Shown here in pieces: positions 2 through 6,292 of a stretch of DNA of 12,770 nt (the stretch's first letter is position 1; every line of letters begins with the position of its first letter). The DNA is from Armatimonadota bacterium. Its GTDB lineage: Bacteria > Sysuimicrobiota > Sysuimicrobiia > Sysuimicrobiales > Sysuimicrobiaceae. The translations under genes were made by a program, and so were the position numbers. The DNA lies in the NCBI GenBank assembly GCA_031432545.1, contig JAVKGX010000018.1:1-12770 (forward strand). Direction: 5' to 3'. The notes beneath the pieces are model-generated. The model was not told the origin of the DNA. It was given only the letters and a program-made list of their open reading frames with translations, and did no database searches.

Positions 2-564
2 CAGGTCACCTACGACCGCAACGTCGCGTTCGTCCAGCCGTTCCTCGCCGTCGTGCTCGCGGGCGGGATCGTCTACCTTCGGGACGTCGGCGTCCGGTGG
101 CCGGCGTCTGCGTCTGCGTCTGCGGCGCTGGGCGTGGTCCTGGCGTTCGCGCTGCCCGCACACGAAAACCTACAGGCGAACCTCGCCTACCAGTTTTATC
201 GGTACGACCAGGCGGCGCGCCGCATCAGCAGGCAGTACCGCCCCGACGACCTGGTCATCTACTTCCCCGCCTCAATCGACGTCGTCTTCGACCGCTACTT
301 CCGGCCCCCGGGTCGCGCCTGCGGATCGCGACCGACTTCAGGCGTTGGAGCCGAAAAGACCACATGCCGCTGATGCGCGGGGCCGCTCAGCGCTTCTCCC
401 AGTACCGCGGCCGGGTGTGGTTGGTCGTGAGCGTGCCCACGCCTGAGGGTTCGGTGGACGACCTGATCCGCCTGATCACCGAACAGGGTTTCCGGACCGC
501 CGGGATCGAGGACTTCCGAGGCGTCGGCGTCGCGATGTTCGTGCGCGCAGGAGGAAAGCGGTGA
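2..564 (+). CDS. 3' part of a membrane glycosyltransferase-like protein, 5' end outside window, internal 1-nt frameshift
   Basis: The reading frame is open from base 2, so the gene begins upstream of the window. It encodes a membrane stretch (PFLAVVLAGGIVYL), a second hydrophobic segment (AALGVVLAFALP) and then a soluble tail with YDQAARRISRQYRPDDLVIY, a layout common at the C-terminus of GT39/ArnT-like lipid-carrier-dependent glycosyltransferases. After ...DVVFDRYFRPPG the frame must change: codons starting at base 2 give way to codons starting at base 1, which continue SRLRIATDFRRWSRKDH and end ...FVRAGGKR at the TGA of 562-564. One missing C in the C5 run at 305-309 would restore a single protein. 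Without repair, the first frame stops at 373. The stop overlaps the GTG of the next gene by 4 nt, suggesting one operon of two related membrane proteins. The family assignment is inferred from layout; no catalytic residues lie in the visible part. Confidence 0.6.
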   Translation, partial: GHLRPQRRVRPAVPRRRARGRDRLPSGRRRPVAGVCVCVCGAGRGPGVRAARTRKPTGEPRLPVLSVRPGGAPHQQAVPPRRPGHLLPRLNRRRLRPLLPAPGSRLRIATDFRRWSRKDHMPLMRGAAQRFSQYRGRVWLVVSVPTPEGSVDDLIRLITEQGFRTAGIEDFRGVGVAMFVRAGGKR

Positions 565-2306
565 GCGAGGGAAGGTCGGCCGCGTCCGTTCGAGCAGACC
601 GCGCGGCGGTGCGCCACGCAGCCCGGACCGCAGGACCGACGGCCTTGGTGCTGGGTCTGGTTGCGGTCGTTCTCGCCGGCGTGTGGACACTCTTTCTGAA
701 GTACGAGAGCCACTGGTCGGTGGACAGCGCGATCCGGGAACTGATGATCAAGCGCGTCGCCGAGGGCGGGCTGGCCGGGCTCACGGTCCCCAACCTCGCC
801 GCTGAGGTCGATCCTGAGGGACGGTTCTTTCCCAGGTTTTTCTTCGTGGGGCGCGAGGACGGGTACCGTTTTGCGTTCCAGCCGCTGATCGCCGTACTGG
901 GAGCCGTGCCGTACGGCTTGCTCGGACGCGCCGGTCTGCCGGCCATCCCCCTGCTGGGCGCGCTGGCGCTGGGCTGGGTCACTGCGCTCGGTGCTCAGCG
1001 CATCAGGCCCGAATCAGCCGCGCCCGCTGCGGCGTTGCTGCTGCTGGCGACGCCGGTCGCGCTGTACGCCGTCACGCTGTGGGACCACCTCCCCAGCGTG
1101 GCGATGCTGACCGGTGGCACCTACCTGATCTGGCGGCACGGCCTGGAAAGCGCACCTCGGTTGGGGGAAGTGGCGGCCGGAGGATTTCTGATCGGAGCGG
1201 CGCTGCTGTTCCGCAACGAGGCGTACGCGTACGGGCTGGCCGTGGCTGTCGCCTGGGTGGTGTCGGCGCCCCGCGCCAAGGCTTCAGGGCTGGTGGCCCT
1301 GGTCGTCGGGTTTGCCGCCGGCTGGGCGTTGAACGCCGGTTGGAACCGAGTTGTCTTTGGCGATCCCTTCGGGCCCAAGGCGGTCGCCGTGGCCGCACAG
1401 CAGGTCGGGGCCCTGCGCGATCCGGAAATCGGGGGCTTCGTCACGTCGAGGCTGTGGAAGCTCTACCTGTTCGTCATCGCCCCCGACTTCCAGCAGCGCG
1501 CAACCGTCGACGTGTTGGCTGGGATGGCGGCTTTTGCGACGATCGCGCTGGCCGCCGGCCTTCTGTCGACTCGCCATCCCGAGCGCCGTCTGGGTCCGGT
1601 GGCCGCCAGCCTGTGGCTCGTGGCCCTGGCGACGATCTGGGTCCTCGGTGCGCGCGGGCAGGTCACCGGCTTCTTCTGGGTCGCCCCGTACCTCGTGATG
1701 GCGTTCGTGTACAGGCCCGCTTCGCCACTGCGGCGGTTCCTGTGGGTGGTGGGGCTGGTCTTTGCGGCGCTGGTGATCGGCACCGCCTCCCAAGGCGGCT
1801 ACCAGTGGGGGCCGCGCTATCTGCTGGCCGTCTATCCGATTGCGCTGTGGCTGGCTCTGGACGGATGGTTTGCTGCGTCCGACGGGTTCCGCCGCGGCGT
1901 GCGGGTGCCGGTTACGGTCCTCGTGGTGCTCGCCGGCCTCGCCCAGGCAGCAGGCGTCGACCACGCCGACACCGGCGCCTGGCAGGGCAGTGCAGTCGTG
2001 CAGGCACTGCGCACCGCTAGGACGGAGTACGTGGCCACGGGCGTCGAGGGATTCGCGTGGTTCTTTGCGCCGTACTACGGGGAGAAGAAGATCCTGGCTG
2101 TCGACAGCGCCGAGGAGTTGCGCGACCTCGTCCACATGCTGCTGCGCGCGCGGCTGGAGCGGTTCACGTACGTGCCGCGCGACGCGCTCTTCGATCCTCG
2201 GATCATCGAGCGCGAGAACTCGAGCGGGGTATCGTACCGCCGCGTGGACGACCGAAACCACCTCGGGATGCGTCTGATCGAGTACCGCTTGGACCGCACG
2301 CCCTAA
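561..2306 (+). CDS. Multi-pass membrane glycosyltransferase-like protein (GT-C / GT39-like), 581 aa
   Basis: The start is GTG at 561, preceded by AGGAGG at 549-554 with a 6-nt spacer, and it overlaps the upstream stop (GTGA). After a basic cytoplasmic N-terminus, a first membrane segment (about residues 27-47) is followed by a loop with WSVDSAIRELM (D55), the place where GT-C enzymes carry a catalytic acidic residue. Roughly ten hydrophobic segments follow, to about residue 465, including loops with WDHLPS (174-179), LFRNEAYAYG (216-225) and FGDPFGP (266-272); FRNEA sits where related proteins often have RPE. The last ~100 residues look soluble. The expected role is transfer of a sugar from a polyprenyl-phosphate donor to an extracytoplasmic acceptor. 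Neighbours support this: a similar partial gene upstream and a GT2 lipid-sugar synthase downstream. Substrate and acceptor cannot be told from sequence. A polytopic protein of unknown function is the main alternative. Confidence 0.72.
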   Translation: MSEGRSAASVRADRAAVRHAARTAGPTALVLGLVAVVLAGVWTLFLKYESHWSVDSAIRELMIKRVAEGGLAGLTVPNLAAEVDPEGRFFPRFFFVGREDGYRFAFQPLIAVLGAVPYGLLGRAGLPAIPLLGALALGWVTALGAQRIRPESAAPAAALLLLATPVALYAVTLWDHLPSVAMLTGGTYLIWRHGLESAPRLGEVAAGGFLIGAALLFRNEAYAYGLAVAVAWVVSAPRAKASGLVALVVGFAAGWALNAGWNRVVFGDPFGPKAVAVAAQQVGALRDPEIGGFVTSRLWKLYLFVIAPDFQQRATVDVLAGMAAFATIALAAGLLSTRHPERRLGPVAASLWLVALATIWVLGARGQVTGFFWVAPYLVMAFVYRPASPLRRFLWVVGLVFAALVIGTASQGGYQWGPRYLLAVYPIALWLALDGWFAASDGFRRGVRVPVTVLVVLAGLAQAAGVDHADTGAWQGSAVVQALRTARTEYVATGVEGFAWFFAPYYGEKKILAVDSAEELRDLVHMLLRARLERFTYVPRDALFDPRIIERENSSGVSYRRVDDRNHLGMRLIEYRLDRTP

Positions 2307-2324: not shown

Positions 2325-2376
2325 GGTACCAGGAGCCGGTACCAGGAACGGGTACCAGGAACGGGTACCAGGAACG
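2325..2376 (+). repeat. Left 13-bp direct tandem array, 4 copies
   Basis: Units start at 2325, 2338, 2351 and 2364, exactly 13 bp apart. Three read GGTACCAGGAACG; the outermost reads GGTACCAGGAGCC. The array begins 18 bp after the stop of the glycosyltransferase gene and ends 26 bp before the transposase stop codon on the other strand. GGTACC is self-complementary, so two adjacent units can form a 6-bp stem with a 7-nt loop (AGGAACG). A small GGTC-GGT-GACC inverted repeat abuts the array at 2376-2386. Confidence 0.93.
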
Positions 2377-2402
2377 GTCGGTGACCTTGCGCCAGCAGTC
2401 TG

Positions 2403-2978
2403 TCAGGCGTCGAGCTTCGCGGAGCGCGCGGGTGTCCCTCGCCTGTCGGAAGCCCCCGGAATGTCGCTCACATCGAGGACGGCGCGCGCCGTGCCGAGCA
2501 GGGCCAGCGCCTCCGTGGGGTCAACGACGCCCCAGTCCTGGGTGGCGTAGGCGTGGTAACTCGTCCAGGGGTAATCCTGGACCGAGGCCGCCAATCCGGC
2601 CTCCACTGGGTTCTGGTGCACGTATCGGACCACTGCCCAGAGGTACCCCTCGTCCTCGCAGAGCCTGGCGAAGTAGCGATCCTGGAACAGATGACCGGTC
2701 TGCCCGTAGCGCCGGTTGCGCCAGACGGCGAAGGTTCGCTGTACGTGGTACATGGCTCTCGCCAGAGAGTCATTGGAGCGGCGCACCAGCAAATGCAGGT
2801 GGTTGGGCAGCAGGGCGTATGCGATCACCCGCAATCCGAACCGCTCGCGGGCTTGGCTGAGCAGGGATAGGTAGAAGGCGAACTCGTCGGGCATGCGAAA
2901 GATCCGCTGTTGGCGGTTTCCTCTGGCAGTGACGTGGTAGATGCCGTCTGGGACTTCCTGGCGAGGCTTGCGCGGCAT
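2403..2978 (-). CDS. REP-associated tyrosine transposase (RAYT), IS200/Y1 HUH family, 191 aa
   Basis: This is a single-strand DNA transposase/endonuclease-like protein of the IS200-type Y1 superfamily. The start is ATG at 2976-2978 with AGGAGG at 2988-2993 (9-nt spacer); an in-frame upstream start at 3044 lacks this signal and would run beyond the usual MPRKPR opening. Landmarks are GIYHVTARGNRQQ (12-24), the metal-binding HUH motif in LLPNHLHLLVR (H60, H62), the GHLFQDRYF block (95-103), and RYVHQNPVEAGLA (118-130), whose Y119 is the likely nucleophile, followed by WTSYHAY. All hallmark blocks are present and the length is usual for RAYTs, so the enzyme looks intact. It is read opposite to its neighbours and lies between two tandem arrays of a 13-bp repeat, typical of RAYTs sitting beside their REP substrates. 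Whether it moves DNA or has a domesticated role is not known. Confidence 0.92.
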   Translation of the reverse strand: MPRKPRQEVPDGIYHVTARGNRQQRIFRMPDEFAFYLSLLSQARERFGLRVIAYALLPNHLHLLVRRSNDSLARAMYHVQRTFAVWRNRRYGQTGHLFQDRYFARLCEDEGYLWAVVRYVHQNPVEAGLAASVQDYPWTSYHAYATQDWGVVDPTEALALLGTARAVLDVSDIPGASDRRGTPARSAKLDA

Positions 2979-3046
2979 GGTCTCCCACCTCCTGGAATCT
3001 CTGTCTGCAAAGACTGAACGGGCCGACGTCGCCGTTTCGTGCACCC

Positions 3047-3068
3047 TTCCTGGAACCGGTACCAGGAA
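3047..3068. repeat. Inverted repeat at the inner edge of the right array
   Basis: TTCCTGG (3047-3053) and CCAGGAA (3062-3068) are perfect inverted repeats around the 8-nt loop AACCGGTA, which itself contains the palindrome ACCGGT. The right arm is the first regular 13-bp unit; the left arm belongs to a possible eroded extra unit at 3045-3057 that matches the GGTACCTGGAACC variant at 10 of 13 positions. A weaker relative, CCTGG and TCAGG with the same loop and one G-T pair, occurs at 3101-3118. REP-like hairpins are the usual RAYT substrate, so this is a candidate recognition site; that role is inferred. Confidence 0.5.
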
Positions 3069-3148
3069 CGGGTACCAGGAACGGGTACCAGGAACAGGTA
3101 CCTGGAACCGGTATCAGGAGCAGGTACCGGGAGCAGGTACCAGGAACC
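3058..3148 (+). repeat. Right 13-bp direct tandem array, 7 copies
   Basis: Units start at 3058, 3071, 3084, 3097, 3110, 3123 and 3136 with an invariant 13-bp period. The first two are GGTACCAGGAACG, identical to the left array. Later units vary: GGTACCAGGAACA, GGTACCTGGAACC, GGTATCAGGAGCA, GGTACCGGGAGCA and GGTACCAGGAACC. The A-to-T change in the fourth unit creates extra inverted repeats with its neighbours, including the palindrome CAGGTACCTG at 3095-3104. The array ends 5 bp before the ATG of the GT2 gene, so it forms the 5' leader of that gene. A 13-bp period is not a multiple of three, which argues against the array being coding. Confidence 0.94.
3142..3146 (+). promoter_or_regulatory. 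Ribosome binding site supplied by the last repeat unit
   Basis: AGGAA at 3142-3146, inside the last 13-bp unit (3136-3148), sits 7 nt before the ATG at 3154 and is the only Shine-Dalgarno-like stretch near that start. The preceding GGTACC at 3123 and 3136 could pair as a hairpin that places AGGAA directly on its 3' side. A regulatory effect is inferred. Confidence 0.5.
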
Positions 3149-3153
3149 GCACA

Positions 3154-3891
3154 ATGGTGGTTTGGGTCATCCTTCCGGCGTTCAACGAGGCCGAAAACCT
3201 CCCCGGGCTTCTGTCGGAACTGGATGCCCTGGCGACGGACACGCTGCCTGGCGTCCGGGTGGTGCTGGTCGATGACGGGAGCACGGATGCGACCGGGGAG
3301 ATCGCGCGGAGCTGGGCAGGTCCGTGCCGGCCGGAGGTGATCGCCCACGGGGCCAACCGGGGGCTGGCGGCGGCGGTGCTGACCGGTCTGCGCGCGGCTG
3401 TGAACAGGTGCGGGACGGACGACGTGATCGTGACCATGGACGCCGACGGATCTCACCGGCCGGCGCAGATCCCCGCGATGGTGCGCGAGATCGCAGACGG
3501 GGCGGATGTGATCATCGCATCGCGCTACCGGCCCGGGGCGCGCACCGCGGGGGTCTCCGCGATCCGCAGCCTGTACAGCCTGGGTGCGCGCGCGCTGCTG
3601 TCGGTGCTCTTCCCGATCCCGGGCGTGCGGGACTACACGTGCGGATTCCGGGCCTACCGGGCCGCGCTGCTGGGCCGGGCCCGCCAGCGCTACGGCGACC
3701 GCTGGATCGAGTCACAGGGTTTCTCGGTGATGACGGAGATCCTGCTGAAGCTGCGCCCCTTGCGGCCGGTGGTGCGCGAGGTGCCCATCGATCTGCGCTA
3801 CGACCTCAAGCGCGGGCGCAGCAAGCTGGTCGCGGGGCGGACCATCCGCCAGTACCTGGGGATGATCGTGCGGCTGCGGCTGCGAACGTGA
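3154..3891 (+). CDS. GT2 glycosyltransferase, polyprenyl-phosphate (dolichol-phosphate) mannose synthase-like, 245 aa
   Basis: This GT-A fold enzyme probably transfers a sugar from a nucleotide donor to a polyprenyl phosphate on the inner membrane face, giving the lipid-linked sugar used by GT-C enzymes. The ATG at 3154 opens directly into the GT2 strand VVWVILPAFNEAENL; an in-frame extension upstream runs through the repeat array and is rejected. Visible motifs are VLVDDGSTDAT (37-47), ANRGLAAAV (68-76), the metal-binding MDADGSH (95-101), IIASRYRPGA (120-129), DYTCGFRAYR (160-169, the DPM1-type acceptor block), and VREVPIDLRYDLKRGRSKL (207-225). It has no C-terminal membrane domain, as in short DPM1-like synthases. 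The leader is the 13-bp repeat array, so expression may have been altered by the RAYT element. Mannose is the usual sugar in this family, but glucose or another sugar is possible. Confidence 0.85.
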   Translation: MVVWVILPAFNEAENLPGLLSELDALATDTLPGVRVVLVDDGSTDATGEIARSWAGPCRPEVIAHGANRGLAAAVLTGLRAAVNRCGTDDVIVTMDADGSHRPAQIPAMVREIADGADVIIASRYRPGARTAGVSAIRSLYSLGARALLSVLFPIPGVRDYTCGFRAYRAALLGRARQRYGDRWIESQGFSVMTEILLKLRPLRPVVREVPIDLRYDLKRGRSKLVAGRTIRQYLGMIVRLRLRT

Positions 3892-4018
3892 AGGGTCTCA
3901 GGCGCCTGGCCGAGTCGCATCGATCCCAGACCCAAGCCTCCACCCAGGACGCGCGAATTCCCGGGTGGCCGGCGTTGTATCCCCACGGAGTCCGAACCGA
4001 AGGAGGGGGGTCGGATCC

Positions 4019-4555
4019 GTGTGGGATCTGGAGCGCCGGGAGGCGGGCTTCAGCCTCCTGGAAGTGATCGTCTCGCTGCAGCTGCTCGCGCTGGTCGTCC
4101 TGGTCTTGCTCCCTTTGAACCGGCTCGCGCTCGGCACCATCGCGTACGCCTCGGGAGCGGTCGGATACGCTCCCGTCCATACCGAGCATCCGGCCAGGCT
4201 GCGCACATCGGCTGCGGAGTACGTGCACGCAGAACTGGAGTATCTGCGCAGCCGCGGATACGCCGCGTTCGCGGCGGCGCACTGTCCTTTGTCCGCCGAG
4301 CCGCGCCCTGATCCGGTGCGGGACGTCCCGCCGGACTACCTGGGCGCCCACGAACCACGGATTCCCCCTGGGTTCGCTCGCGCTCGCATCCGCGTGGAAG
4401 ACGAGCAGGTACACGGGGTGGCCCCGGACGGTTGTTACCCGCGGCGGATCACGGTCTTGCTGTACCGCACCGACGAAGACGCCGCCGCGGCCAGGCCCTT
4501 TGCACGCGGGGCGATCCTGCTGTCGCCGCGCGGCAGGGCGGAGGCAGACCCGTGA
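4019..4555 (+). CDS. PilV-like minor pilin, class III prepilin, 178 aa
   Basis: The protein has a type IV prepilin N-terminus: a short charged leader MWDLERREAG, then FSLLEVIVSLQLLALVVLVLL. Cleavage is expected after G10, with F at +1 and the conserved Glu at +5 (E15), and one long hydrophobic helix. The start is GTG at 4019, with AGGAGG at 4001-4006 upstream (12-nt spacer, slightly long); a GTG at 3965 is in frame but has no ribosome binding site and would give an unusually long leader. ELEYLRSRGYAAF (about 75-87) resembles the post-helix region of PilV/GspI-type minor pilins. Two cysteines in the globular part (AAHCPLS, PDGCYPRR) could form a disulfide. It is the first of four prepilin-like genes and its stop overlaps the next start by 4 nt. 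A role in priming or tipping a pilus or pseudopilus is expected from the family. Confidence 0.8.
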   Translation: MWDLERREAGFSLLEVIVSLQLLALVVLVLLPLNRLALGTIAYASGAVGYAPVHTEHPARLRTSAAEYVHAELEYLRSRGYAAFAAAHCPLSAEPRPDPVRDVPPDYLGAHEPRIPPGFARARIRVEDEQVHGVAPDGCYPRRITVLLYRTDEDAAAARPFARGAILLSPRGRAEADP

Positions 4556-5145
4556 GCGGCGTCCCACACGGCGACGAAGCCGGCCTCACGCTGGTCGAAC
4601 TGCTCGTGGCGTTGTGCCTGCTGGGGGCCGTGCTGATCGCGACGACGACCGTGCTGTCCGGGACGTTTCGGGCGTGGCGTGTGACGGCGCACCGGGCCGA
4701 AGAACAGCAAAATGTCCGGCTGGCCCTGGAGTGGATGGTGCGCAGGCTGCGCGTCATCGGCCCAACCGACCTGACCGGCGGCGACGGGGGTTCGGTCGCC
4801 TTCGTCGCCGACTTGGGCAGCGGGGTCAAGCCCCACCGGTTCTGTCTGGATCGGCGCAGCTGGGTAGTGCGCCACCAGTCCGGAACGGACGTGACCCCGA
4901 CGGGCTGCACAAGGGGCGCGGGCATCACGACCCCTGCTGAGGCGGGCCAGCCCCACGTGGTGTCGCTGGAGTTTGCTTACTTCGACGCCGCCGACAACCT
5001 GCTGCCGGTTCCCCTGGACGCCACAGACCTCACGCGCATCCGGCGCATTCGGATCGAGTTGAAAATGGGCCTGCCAGGCCGCGACGAAGCCTCGTCGGCG
5101 ATGGGTCTAACCGCGGAGGTGGGACTACGCGGGGAGGTGCGGTGA
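4552..5145 (+). CDS. PilW/GspJ-like minor pilin, class III prepilin, 197 aa
   Basis: The GTG at 4552 overlaps the previous stop (GTGA) and is preceded by GGAGG at 4540-4544 (7-nt spacer), so translation is probably coupled. The leader MSGVPHGDEAG is followed by LTLVELLVALCLLGAVLIA, with the processing Gly at 11, Leu instead of Phe at +1, and the conserved Glu at +5 (E16). The following AEEQQNVRLALEWMVRRLR matches the amphipathic region after the helix in PilW/GspJ-type proteins. The remainder is a globular domain with FAYFDAADNLL and a late RIRRIRIELKM strand, also usual in that group. After the leader helix region, cysteines occur in RFCLDRR and TGCTRG. The stop is shared with the next gene (TGATG). 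Confidence 0.8.
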   Translation: MSGVPHGDEAGLTLVELLVALCLLGAVLIATTTVLSGTFRAWRVTAHRAEEQQNVRLALEWMVRRLRVIGPTDLTGGDGGSVAFVADLGSGVKPHRFCLDRRSWVVRHQSGTDVTPTGCTRGAGITTPAEAGQPHVVSLEFAYFDAADNLLPVPLDATDLTRIRRIRIELKMGLPGRDEASSAMGLTAEVGLRGEVR

Positions 5146-5756
5146 TGGCGATCGGACACGGGCATTTCGTGTTCGGCGGAGCACGGGCGGGGCGGCGGTG
5201 TGGCGGTCCCGAGGCCGTTCGACGAGTGATGGGTTTTGACGAGTCGGGGCTGGCGCTGGTCGTCACGCTGGCCGCGACGGTGGTGCTGCTGGCGGTGTCG
5301 GCGACTCTCGTGGCCGTGGCCCGGAACGAGTATCGGCTGGCGGCCTTGGCCCAGACCTCGCGGCAGGCCCTGGCCGTGGCCGAGGCCGGGCTGGAGCGCG
5401 GGCTGTTCGAGTTGCGACGAGACAGCAACTGGACGGACGCGACGGGGGCAACTGCCCTCAGCAGCGGCCCGTCGTGGTCCCCGCTGTGCCTGGCACCGGA
5501 CGCCGCACCTCCGTGCGACGAGGCGAGGGCCGTAGACGTGCCCTTTCCCGGGACGGATCCGCTCGGAACCTTTACGGTCGAACTGGCCAAAATCGGAGCG
5601 GATCCGCCGCTGGGTTGCGACGCAACGACGTGCATGCGACTCCGCGCGAGCGGGCGGGTCCGCGGATCGGCGCGCGTGGTGCAGGCCGTGGCCCGCCGCG
5701 TCGCCGACGCGGCTGTGGAGGTGCAGGAGTGGCGGGAGGTGTGGAAGGCGGAGTAG
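5145..5756 (+). CDS. PilX-like pilus assembly protein, 203 aa
   Basis: The chosen ATG at 5145 overlaps the upstream stop by one base and has GGAGG at 5133-5137 (7-nt spacer). An internal ATG at 5229 would give a short leader (MGFDESG) but has only a weak ribosome binding site. The diagnostic part is ESGLALVVTLAATVVLLAVSATLVAVA followed by QALAVAEAGLERGLFELR, the N-terminal arrangement of PilX-type proteins (hydrophobic helix then AEAGLE). The Glu at +5 after the Gly is absent (V instead), as is common in PilX/GspK-like members. The C-terminal half is a small globular domain with four cysteines (two in LCLAPDAAPPCDEA, two in GCDATTCMRLRA), able to form two disulfides. Function is inferred from family and position: a minor subunit of a type IV pilus or pseudopilus complex. 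Confidence 0.75.
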   Translation: MAIGHGHFVFGGARAGRRCGGPEAVRRVMGFDESGLALVVTLAATVVLLAVSATLVAVARNEYRLAALAQTSRQALAVAEAGLERGLFELRRDSNWTDATGATALSSGPSWSPLCLAPDAAPPCDEARAVDVPFPGTDPLGTFTVELAKIGADPPLGCDATTCMRLRASGRVRGSARVVQAVARRVADAAVEVQEWREVWKAE

Positions 5757-5803
5757 CGGGAATCAAAGACCGCGGGACACCGATTCCGGAGGGAGGAGAC
5801 GAC

Positions 5804-6292
5804 GTGCGTGCAGCCCCTCCCGACACGGAACCCGGGCAGCGGGGTTTCACCCTGGTGGAGGCGATCGTCGTCGCCGCGATCGTCTCGGTCCTGCTCGGAA
5901 TGGCCCTGGGCGGATACCGTGGAGTGCTGGCGGAACGGAGGGTGGACCGCGTGGCGTGGGAGATCGCCGGAGCCTTCCGGCTGGCCCAACAGACGGCCGT
6001 GGCGAGGGCGGGGGAGTGGCAAGCGGTCCGGGTCTACCTGACGGACCGGGCGGAGGTGCGGGGCCTCACGCCCGCGGGCACGGAGACCACGACGTTGTCC
6101 GCAACCGACGTCTTCCCGGACGGCGTGCGGGTGAGGCGCCTGACAGGATGCGAGCCGTTCGAAGTCCTGGGCTCCGGTGCGCCCCGCGTCGGCTGTCAAG
6201 GGACGATCGAGGTCAGGTCGGGTCCGGCCGTGCGGTACGTGATCGTGACCGCCCACACCGGCCGGGTGCGCGTCGGCACGTCCCCGCCGTAG
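5804..6292 (+). CDS. FimT/GspH-like pseudopilin, class III prepilin, 162 aa
   Basis: The start is GTG at 5804, behind a purine-rich GGAGGGAGGAG at 5788-5798. The frame is open further upstream, but that part overlaps the preceding gene and lacks a signal. The leader MRAAPPDTEPGQRG ends at G14; the mature protein begins FTLVEAIVVAAIVSVLLGMAL with Glu at +5 (E19). AWEIAGAFRLAQQTAVARAGEWQAVRVYL (about 56-84) is the characteristic stretch of FimT/GspH proteins, where a helix with AR/QQTA leads into beta strands. Two cysteines lie in the C-terminal sheet (TGCEPF, VGCQGT). It follows the PilX-like gene by 47 nt and closes the cluster. In Gram-negative bacteria FimT and GspH are minor pilins, and some FimT proteins bind DNA during uptake; whether this one does is unknown. 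Confidence 0.8.
   Translation: MRAAPPDTEPGQRGFTLVEAIVVAAIVSVLLGMALGGYRGVLAERRVDRVAWEIAGAFRLAQQTAVARAGEWQAVRVYLTDRAEVRGLTPAGTETTTLSATDVFPDGVRVRRLTGCEPFEVLGSGAPRVGCQGTIEVRSGPAVRYVIVTAHTGRVRVGTSPP

Follow-up and report, generated by a model that had tools for sequence, protein, structure and literature searches.

A RAYT gene and flanking tandem arrays of a 13-bp near-palindrome that look like its cognate REP-type repeats

Organisation of the RAYT locus

The window analysed here is a complete contig (C18, 12,770 bp) of the genome under study (G000; 2.19 Mb in 21 contigs). It contains a RAYT gene located between two tandem arrays of the same short repeat, which raises the question of whether the arrays belong with the enzyme. 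The array unit, GGTACCAGGAACN, is 13 bp long and runs in one orientation and in exact register on both sides of the gene. The left array (2325–2376, plus strand) is composed of four units, GGTACCAGGAGCC followed by three copies of GGTACCAGGAACG, and the right array (3058–3148, plus strand) is composed of seven, three of which are degenerate (GGTACCTGGAACC, GGTATCAGGAGCA and GGTACCGGGAGCA). An additional degenerate unit, CTTCCTGGAACC (3046–3057, plus strand), forms the RAYT-proximal margin of the right array. Tandem Repeats Finder reported a period of 13 for each array (2325–2377, 4.1 copies, 95% match; and 3052–3147, 7.4 copies, 85% match). The window contains 15 matches to the 12-base core GGTACCAGGAAC with at most two mismatches, 14 of them at the two arrays, versus 0.63 expected from dinucleotide shuffles, and none of 200 shuffled windows reached 15.

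A gap of 5 bp separates the end of the right array from the ATG that starts a family-2 glycosyltransferase gene (3154–3891, plus strand), which served as the syntenic anchor and has relatives at 63–65% identity. The last array unit places AGGA ∼8 nt 5′ of this ATG (3136–3154), and, judging by this spacing, it may supply the Shine-Dalgarno sequence of the glycosyltransferase. On the other side of the RAYT lies a gene for an LA3751-like putative membrane glycosyltransferase (561–2306, plus strand; NCBIfam match below the cut-off). A run of prepilin-like genes with the N-terminal methylation motif is found downstream of the family-2 glycosyltransferase (3965–6292), and a similar prepilin-like gene follows the glycosyltransferase in genome G039 (locus L056).

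The RAYT/TnpA-REP gene (2403–2978, minus strand; 191 aa from the ATG) was assigned from Pfam, NCBIfam, alignments and fold. The open reading frame matches Pfam Y1_Tnp (E 4.7e-10), the only domain found in a Pfam search that revealed no C-terminal helix-turn-helix domain, and NCBIfam NF047646 REP_Tyr_transpos (84.4 bits; cut-off 80). A GTG at 3044, 66 bp upstream of the ATG, would give 213 aa, but the ATG at 2978 is the likely start because alignments with relatives begin there. The HUH motif has the form N-H-L-H, and the catalytic tyrosine lies within RYVHQNP, so that the protein combines a Y1 HUH domain, the Tyr-x-x-x-N-P motif and a RAYT-model match, as RAYT/TnpA-REP proteins do. H60, H62 and Y119 (numbered from the ATG at 2978) are invariant across a 43-sequence alignment, in which the invariant motif residues carry the numbers N81, H82, H84, Y141, N145 and P146. 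In the AlphaFold model (mean pLDDT 86.9, low confidence from about residue 191) the best structural match is the E. coli RAYT–REP structure 4ER8 (E 4e-9), followed by the ISDra2 and IS608 transposases; a sequence search for solved relatives likewise gave E. coli TnpA-REP (4ER8) alone. W94-Q95 of the E. coli enzyme, part of the region that recognises GTAG (PMC6006769), corresponds to F-Q in the window protein. G000 carries two RAYTs that are 52% identical and no insertion-sequence-like identical copies; the window RAYT is a single-copy domesticated transposase gene that is vertically kept.

The initial annotation had described an HUH transposase with H60, H62 and Y119 between four and seven copies of one unit in 13-bp register. 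The domain matches and the conservation of these residues confirm the enzyme, and the unit counts, register and single orientation stand. Not all of the units are GGTACCAGGAACG, however: base 13 is G, A or C, and three units of the right array are degenerate.

Structure and distribution of the 13-bp repeat

The annotation had also set direct arrays against palindromic REPs, an opposition that fails at the level of the unit, as the direct unit, GGTACC-A-GGAACC, is an imperfect palindrome in its own right. In an alignment of 70 units in register the consensus is nGTACCnGGAACn, in which positions 6, 9 and 12 never vary, positions 2, 5 and 8 almost never do, and the edges (1 and 13) and the centre (7) are free. 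Since GGTACC is palindromic, a pair of tandem units can fold as GGTACC-AGGAACG-GGTACC, a REP-like hairpin despite the direct-repeat geometry. With DNA parameters two units are predicted to form a 6-bp stem that closes a 7-nt loop (−3.7 kcal/mol), which makes for a weak hairpin, and one unit alone has no predicted fold. Neither GTAG nor GTGG is present in the two window arrays. Exact copies of a 26-bp dimer, GGTACCTGGAACC and then GGTACCAGGAAC, number two on contig C2 and one each on C5 and in G039; a third C2 site departs from it in the first base only. Units are homogenised locally, being more alike within an array than between arrays (11.6 versus 11.1 of 13 positions; 0 of 2000 permutations); the arrays therefore appear to have been seeded and then grown in place.

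The repeat is dispersed in G000, with 71 unit sites at one mismatch versus 5 for the reversed control; about 20 arrays of one to twelve matches each were counted. Although ∼90% of the sequence is coding, 19 of 20 arrays are intergenic (by gene calls from a codon-usage caller trained on six window genes, in a count that omits one further degenerate in-gene match), and many are no more than 25 bp from a start or stop codon. Most have no adjoining RAYT. One array (C1:612288–612378) has inserted into a menE-like acyl-CoA ligase gene with in-frame read-through (EVRI-RYQEQVPGTGTRN...-PGEILVRGP); orthologues without the array read EVRV-EE-GEVLVRGP (G035), EVRVEGGEGEILVRGP (G036) and EVRAGRSAQEPGEILVRGP (G040). 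At a second new site, the gap between the birA and dmpA-like genes contains a two-unit array and measures ∼58 bp in G000, compared with 14 bp in both G039 and G040; five relatives have this gap without an array. At the C5 and C6 array loci, gene order differed from that of the relatives or divergence was too high for an empty-site comparison. No clear target-site duplications were seen by eye in the array flanks, as expected for Y1 enzymes. A NagZ-like glycosidase gene on G000 contig C4 (L040:4207–5832) has an internal repeat of its own, with two copies of TGLLRGRMGFDG and a linker between them.

The comparison covered 43 genomes of the phylum, all from one order, with few and divergent relatives and one strain of the species. 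Tandem pairs of the unit (at most three mismatches) numbered 53 in G000, 15 in G039 and one each in G037 and G040, with none in the other 39 genomes, and reversed-control pairs were absent from all 43. Only G000 and G039 have an intact RAYT of the window RAYT's clade. A two-by-two table of intact clade RAYTs against arrays gives a chance of 1 in 903, a figure that exceeds the true strength of the association because G000 and G039 share a family and are not independent.

The same association is seen at the locus itself. In G039, which belongs to another genus, a RAYT 58% identical to that of the window lies between the same arrays and adjoins the orthologous glycosyltransferase gene, where a 7-unit array is readable too; the array on the glycosyltransferase side is alignable among G000, G039 and G040. 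The orthologous locus contains a decayed RAYT with decayed repeats in G038 and neither RAYT nor array in G035 and G036. In G040 the array is present and the RAYT absent, which taken alone would count against a link between the two, but the decayed RAYT at this position in the sister genome makes it read as RAYT loss. Repeats are decayed or few where the RAYT is decayed or lost. Relatives that lack the RAYT do not have arrays in equal abundance. The link between arrays and RAYT, first proposed from placement, is thus supported by comparative evidence, namely synteny in another genus, genome-wide co-occurrence and repeat decay upon RAYT loss.

Sequences next to the arrays were also inspected. 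In G039 and G040 the arrays are accompanied by GTTGACATAACG, which was considered as part of a longer repeat and rejected, as it occurs once per genome in the four g3 genomes; it lies within a dif-like site in G037 and G038 and forms a half site away from dif in G039 and G040. Repeat units abut the dif-like site at a distance of 2–3 bp in G037 (G037:C3:3044), and units abut the half-dif AGTTGACATAACGT at G039:C50:2465 and G040:C2:85087, with a full dif-like site elsewhere in both genomes.

Palindromes beside related RAYTs

The second RAYT of G000 (L066, C8:65003–65605) is flanked on both sides by a palindrome, GGTGCCAGGCACC, of which G000 contains a few dispersed copies (C1:136208, C2:61569, C2:135314 and C8:65630). 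RAYTs of order-mates have GGTGCCAGGCACC, GGTACCTGGTACC, GGGGTCAGACCCC, GGGGACAGTCCCC or GGTGACAGTCACC in their flanks, with the common form arm-CAG-arm′. Sites of the sister palindrome GGTGCCWGGCACC, each listed on both strands as the sequence is palindromic, number 32 in G015, 10 in G021, 9 in G022, 5 in G020 and 4 in G000, with at most two elsewhere, and RAYTs are present in each of these five genomes.

RAYT flanks were compared with controls for 97 loci from the study order and named genomes; two of the 97, L056 and L100, are probably duplicates. The two flanks had an 11-mer in common at 68 of the 97 loci versus 16 of 73 control flanks, and a tandem repeat lay at most 400 bp away at 44 versus 11 of 97 controls. 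The generalised core GG[GT][AG][ACT]C[AG]G was present on both sides in inverted orientation in 27 of 67 cases (2 of 67 controls). On the RAYT tree, which was built without published subclass reference sequences, motif type required 13 changes versus at least 24 in 500 shuffles, with the reservation that the labels were chosen after the flanks had been seen and that linkage alone would give some clumping. Judged from these sequences, motif type follows the RAYT tree.

Other arrangements were observed in the order. Palindromes are paired 29–30 bp apart, without abutting, at L058 and L057 and on contigs C15, C21, C49 and C169 of G015, so the spacing differs by RAYT lineage. Another RAYT type of genus g3, cut by contig ends in G037, G040 and G039 (L063, L064, L073 and L079), has direct arrays before it whose units contain CTGTCCCC and have a GGGGACAG core.

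Origin of the arrays and relation to known systems

These observations are probably best explained by a REPtron-like unit, in which a vertically kept single-copy RAYT is accompanied by a cognate 13-bp imperfect palindrome, nGTACCnGGAACn, packed head to tail; the arrays look like unusually short, tandemly packed REP-type mobile repeats of this RAYT. Two adjacent units would give either a 26-bp near-palindrome, GGTACCTGGAACC.GGTACCAGGAACC, or the hairpin with its 6-bp GGTACC stem and 7-nt loop, and this structure is the likely single-strand substrate of the HUH/Tyr enzyme. Acting in trans, the RAYT would carry short units to new locations, most of them between genes, with no target duplication. 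Slippage or unequal exchange would then lengthen the arrays in place. We infer from the repeat and its distribution that the RAYT recognises the hairpin and mobilises the units and that the arrays grow by slippage. It is conceivable, though doubtful, that the RAYT instead cuts and rejoins the single-stranded array at each GGTACC-n-GGAAC step, which would make seeding and lengthening both products of the transposase; the cited papers describe no such mode for REP systems.

Among explanations without present mobilisation by the RAYT, the arrays could be its own terminal repeats, as in the TIRtrons of Di Nocera et al., with solo copies as relics and a RAYT that now moves nothing. Repeats on both sides of a single-copy, vertically inherited gene that is decayed in G038 and lost in G040 agree with this, as do the inverted GGGGWSAS-like cores frequent at related RAYTs, but we regard it as improbable, since the window arrays are direct rather than inverted and the many near-identical G000 arrays missing in relatives suggest spread after the split. 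The arrays could also be independent satellites, produced by slippage, recombination or another element, with the RAYT located between them by chance or inserted into them. Homogeneity within arrays is an expected outcome of slippage, and arrays do exist without a RAYT, both in G040 and at most G000 sites. Slippage alone, however, does not explain placement in new genes, arrays are nearly absent from the 41 genomes without an intact clade RAYT, the same pairing is seen again in another genus, and other RAYTs are flanked by related palindromes of their own, so this origin is likewise given little credence. Retention as host regulatory elements unlinked to transposition, such as a glycosyltransferase leader or Shine-Dalgarno sequence, fits the array abutting the glycosyltransferase start in two genera and the many arrays at most 25 bp from start or stop codons, but is very improbable, as the family members G035 and G036 lack the array at that start and arrays lie beside unrelated genes and inside one gene.

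The REPtron-like reading places the locus close to several described systems. REPtrons with GTAG REPs or REPINs in E. coli and Pseudomonas (PMC3116915, PMC8266576) share with it a low-copy RAYT, cognate dispersed intergenic palindromes and repeat clusters beside the RAYT, including tandem REP arrays in P. fluorescens SBW25. The tandem geometry is therefore not foreign to REPs, as had been supposed, since Bertels and Rainey (2011) described tandem REPIN clusters with units of ∼70–180 bp beside Pseudomonas RAYTs (PMC3116915). Like REPs in the broad sense, the window repeats are palindromic, dispersed, mostly intergenic and adjacent to a cognate RAYT. Unlike canonical GTAG REPs, they have no GTAG/GTGG foot, their unit is 13 bp rather than a 20–40 bp hairpin, and, in contrast to tandem REPs with a period of ∼70–180 bp, they repeat every 13 bp and form a hairpin only across two units. 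Of the contrast with REPs first drawn for this locus, what persists is the strictly abutting 13-bp packing, which is the unusual feature; the palindromic unit and the dispersed, intergenic arrays are REP-like.

Di Nocera et al. (2013) described TIRtrons as RAYT-like genes with flanking inverted repeats, many containing GGGGWSAS, some of them self-complementary and dispersed as single, dimeric or grouped copies (PMC3733652). The window locus resembles these and TIRYT in its RAYT-like gene, its short repeat without GTAG on both sides and its dispersed copies. It differs in the direct, exact 13-bp packing of GGTACCAGGAAC, as both arrays run one way, and in its core, as GGTACCAG agrees with GGGGWSAS at 5 of 8 positions; intermediates towards GGGGWSAS, GGTGCCAG and GGTGACAG, flank related RAYTs. 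Quentin et al. (2018) reported TnpA-Y1 subclass 2.1 (group 1 of Bertels) as lacking REP-like flanks and as the probable home of TIRYT (PMC6006769). The window enzyme shares with it N-H-x-H, F-Q for W-Q at the guide-binding position and H-x-N-P after the catalytic tyrosine, but has YVHQNP rather than YIHLNP, no detected C-terminal helix-turn-helix and clear flanking repeats. A literature search for the exact palindromes yielded nothing relevant in the papers covered. We class the window case among RAYTs that have a REP-like cognate repeat, as distinct from GTAG REP systems and standard TIRtrons.

For the large class of RAYTs without GTAG REPs, REP-like flanks were reported to be lacking, save for a set of inverted repeats. 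Our results suggest that these RAYTs do have cognate repeats, in the form of very short palindromes of ∼11–13 bp, often in small tandem arrays, that change in step with the enzyme and were probably below the reach of earlier hairpin searches. Each enzyme thereby gains a defined candidate substrate, and the window RAYT may be a case of a domesticated transposase that generates short tandem arrays.
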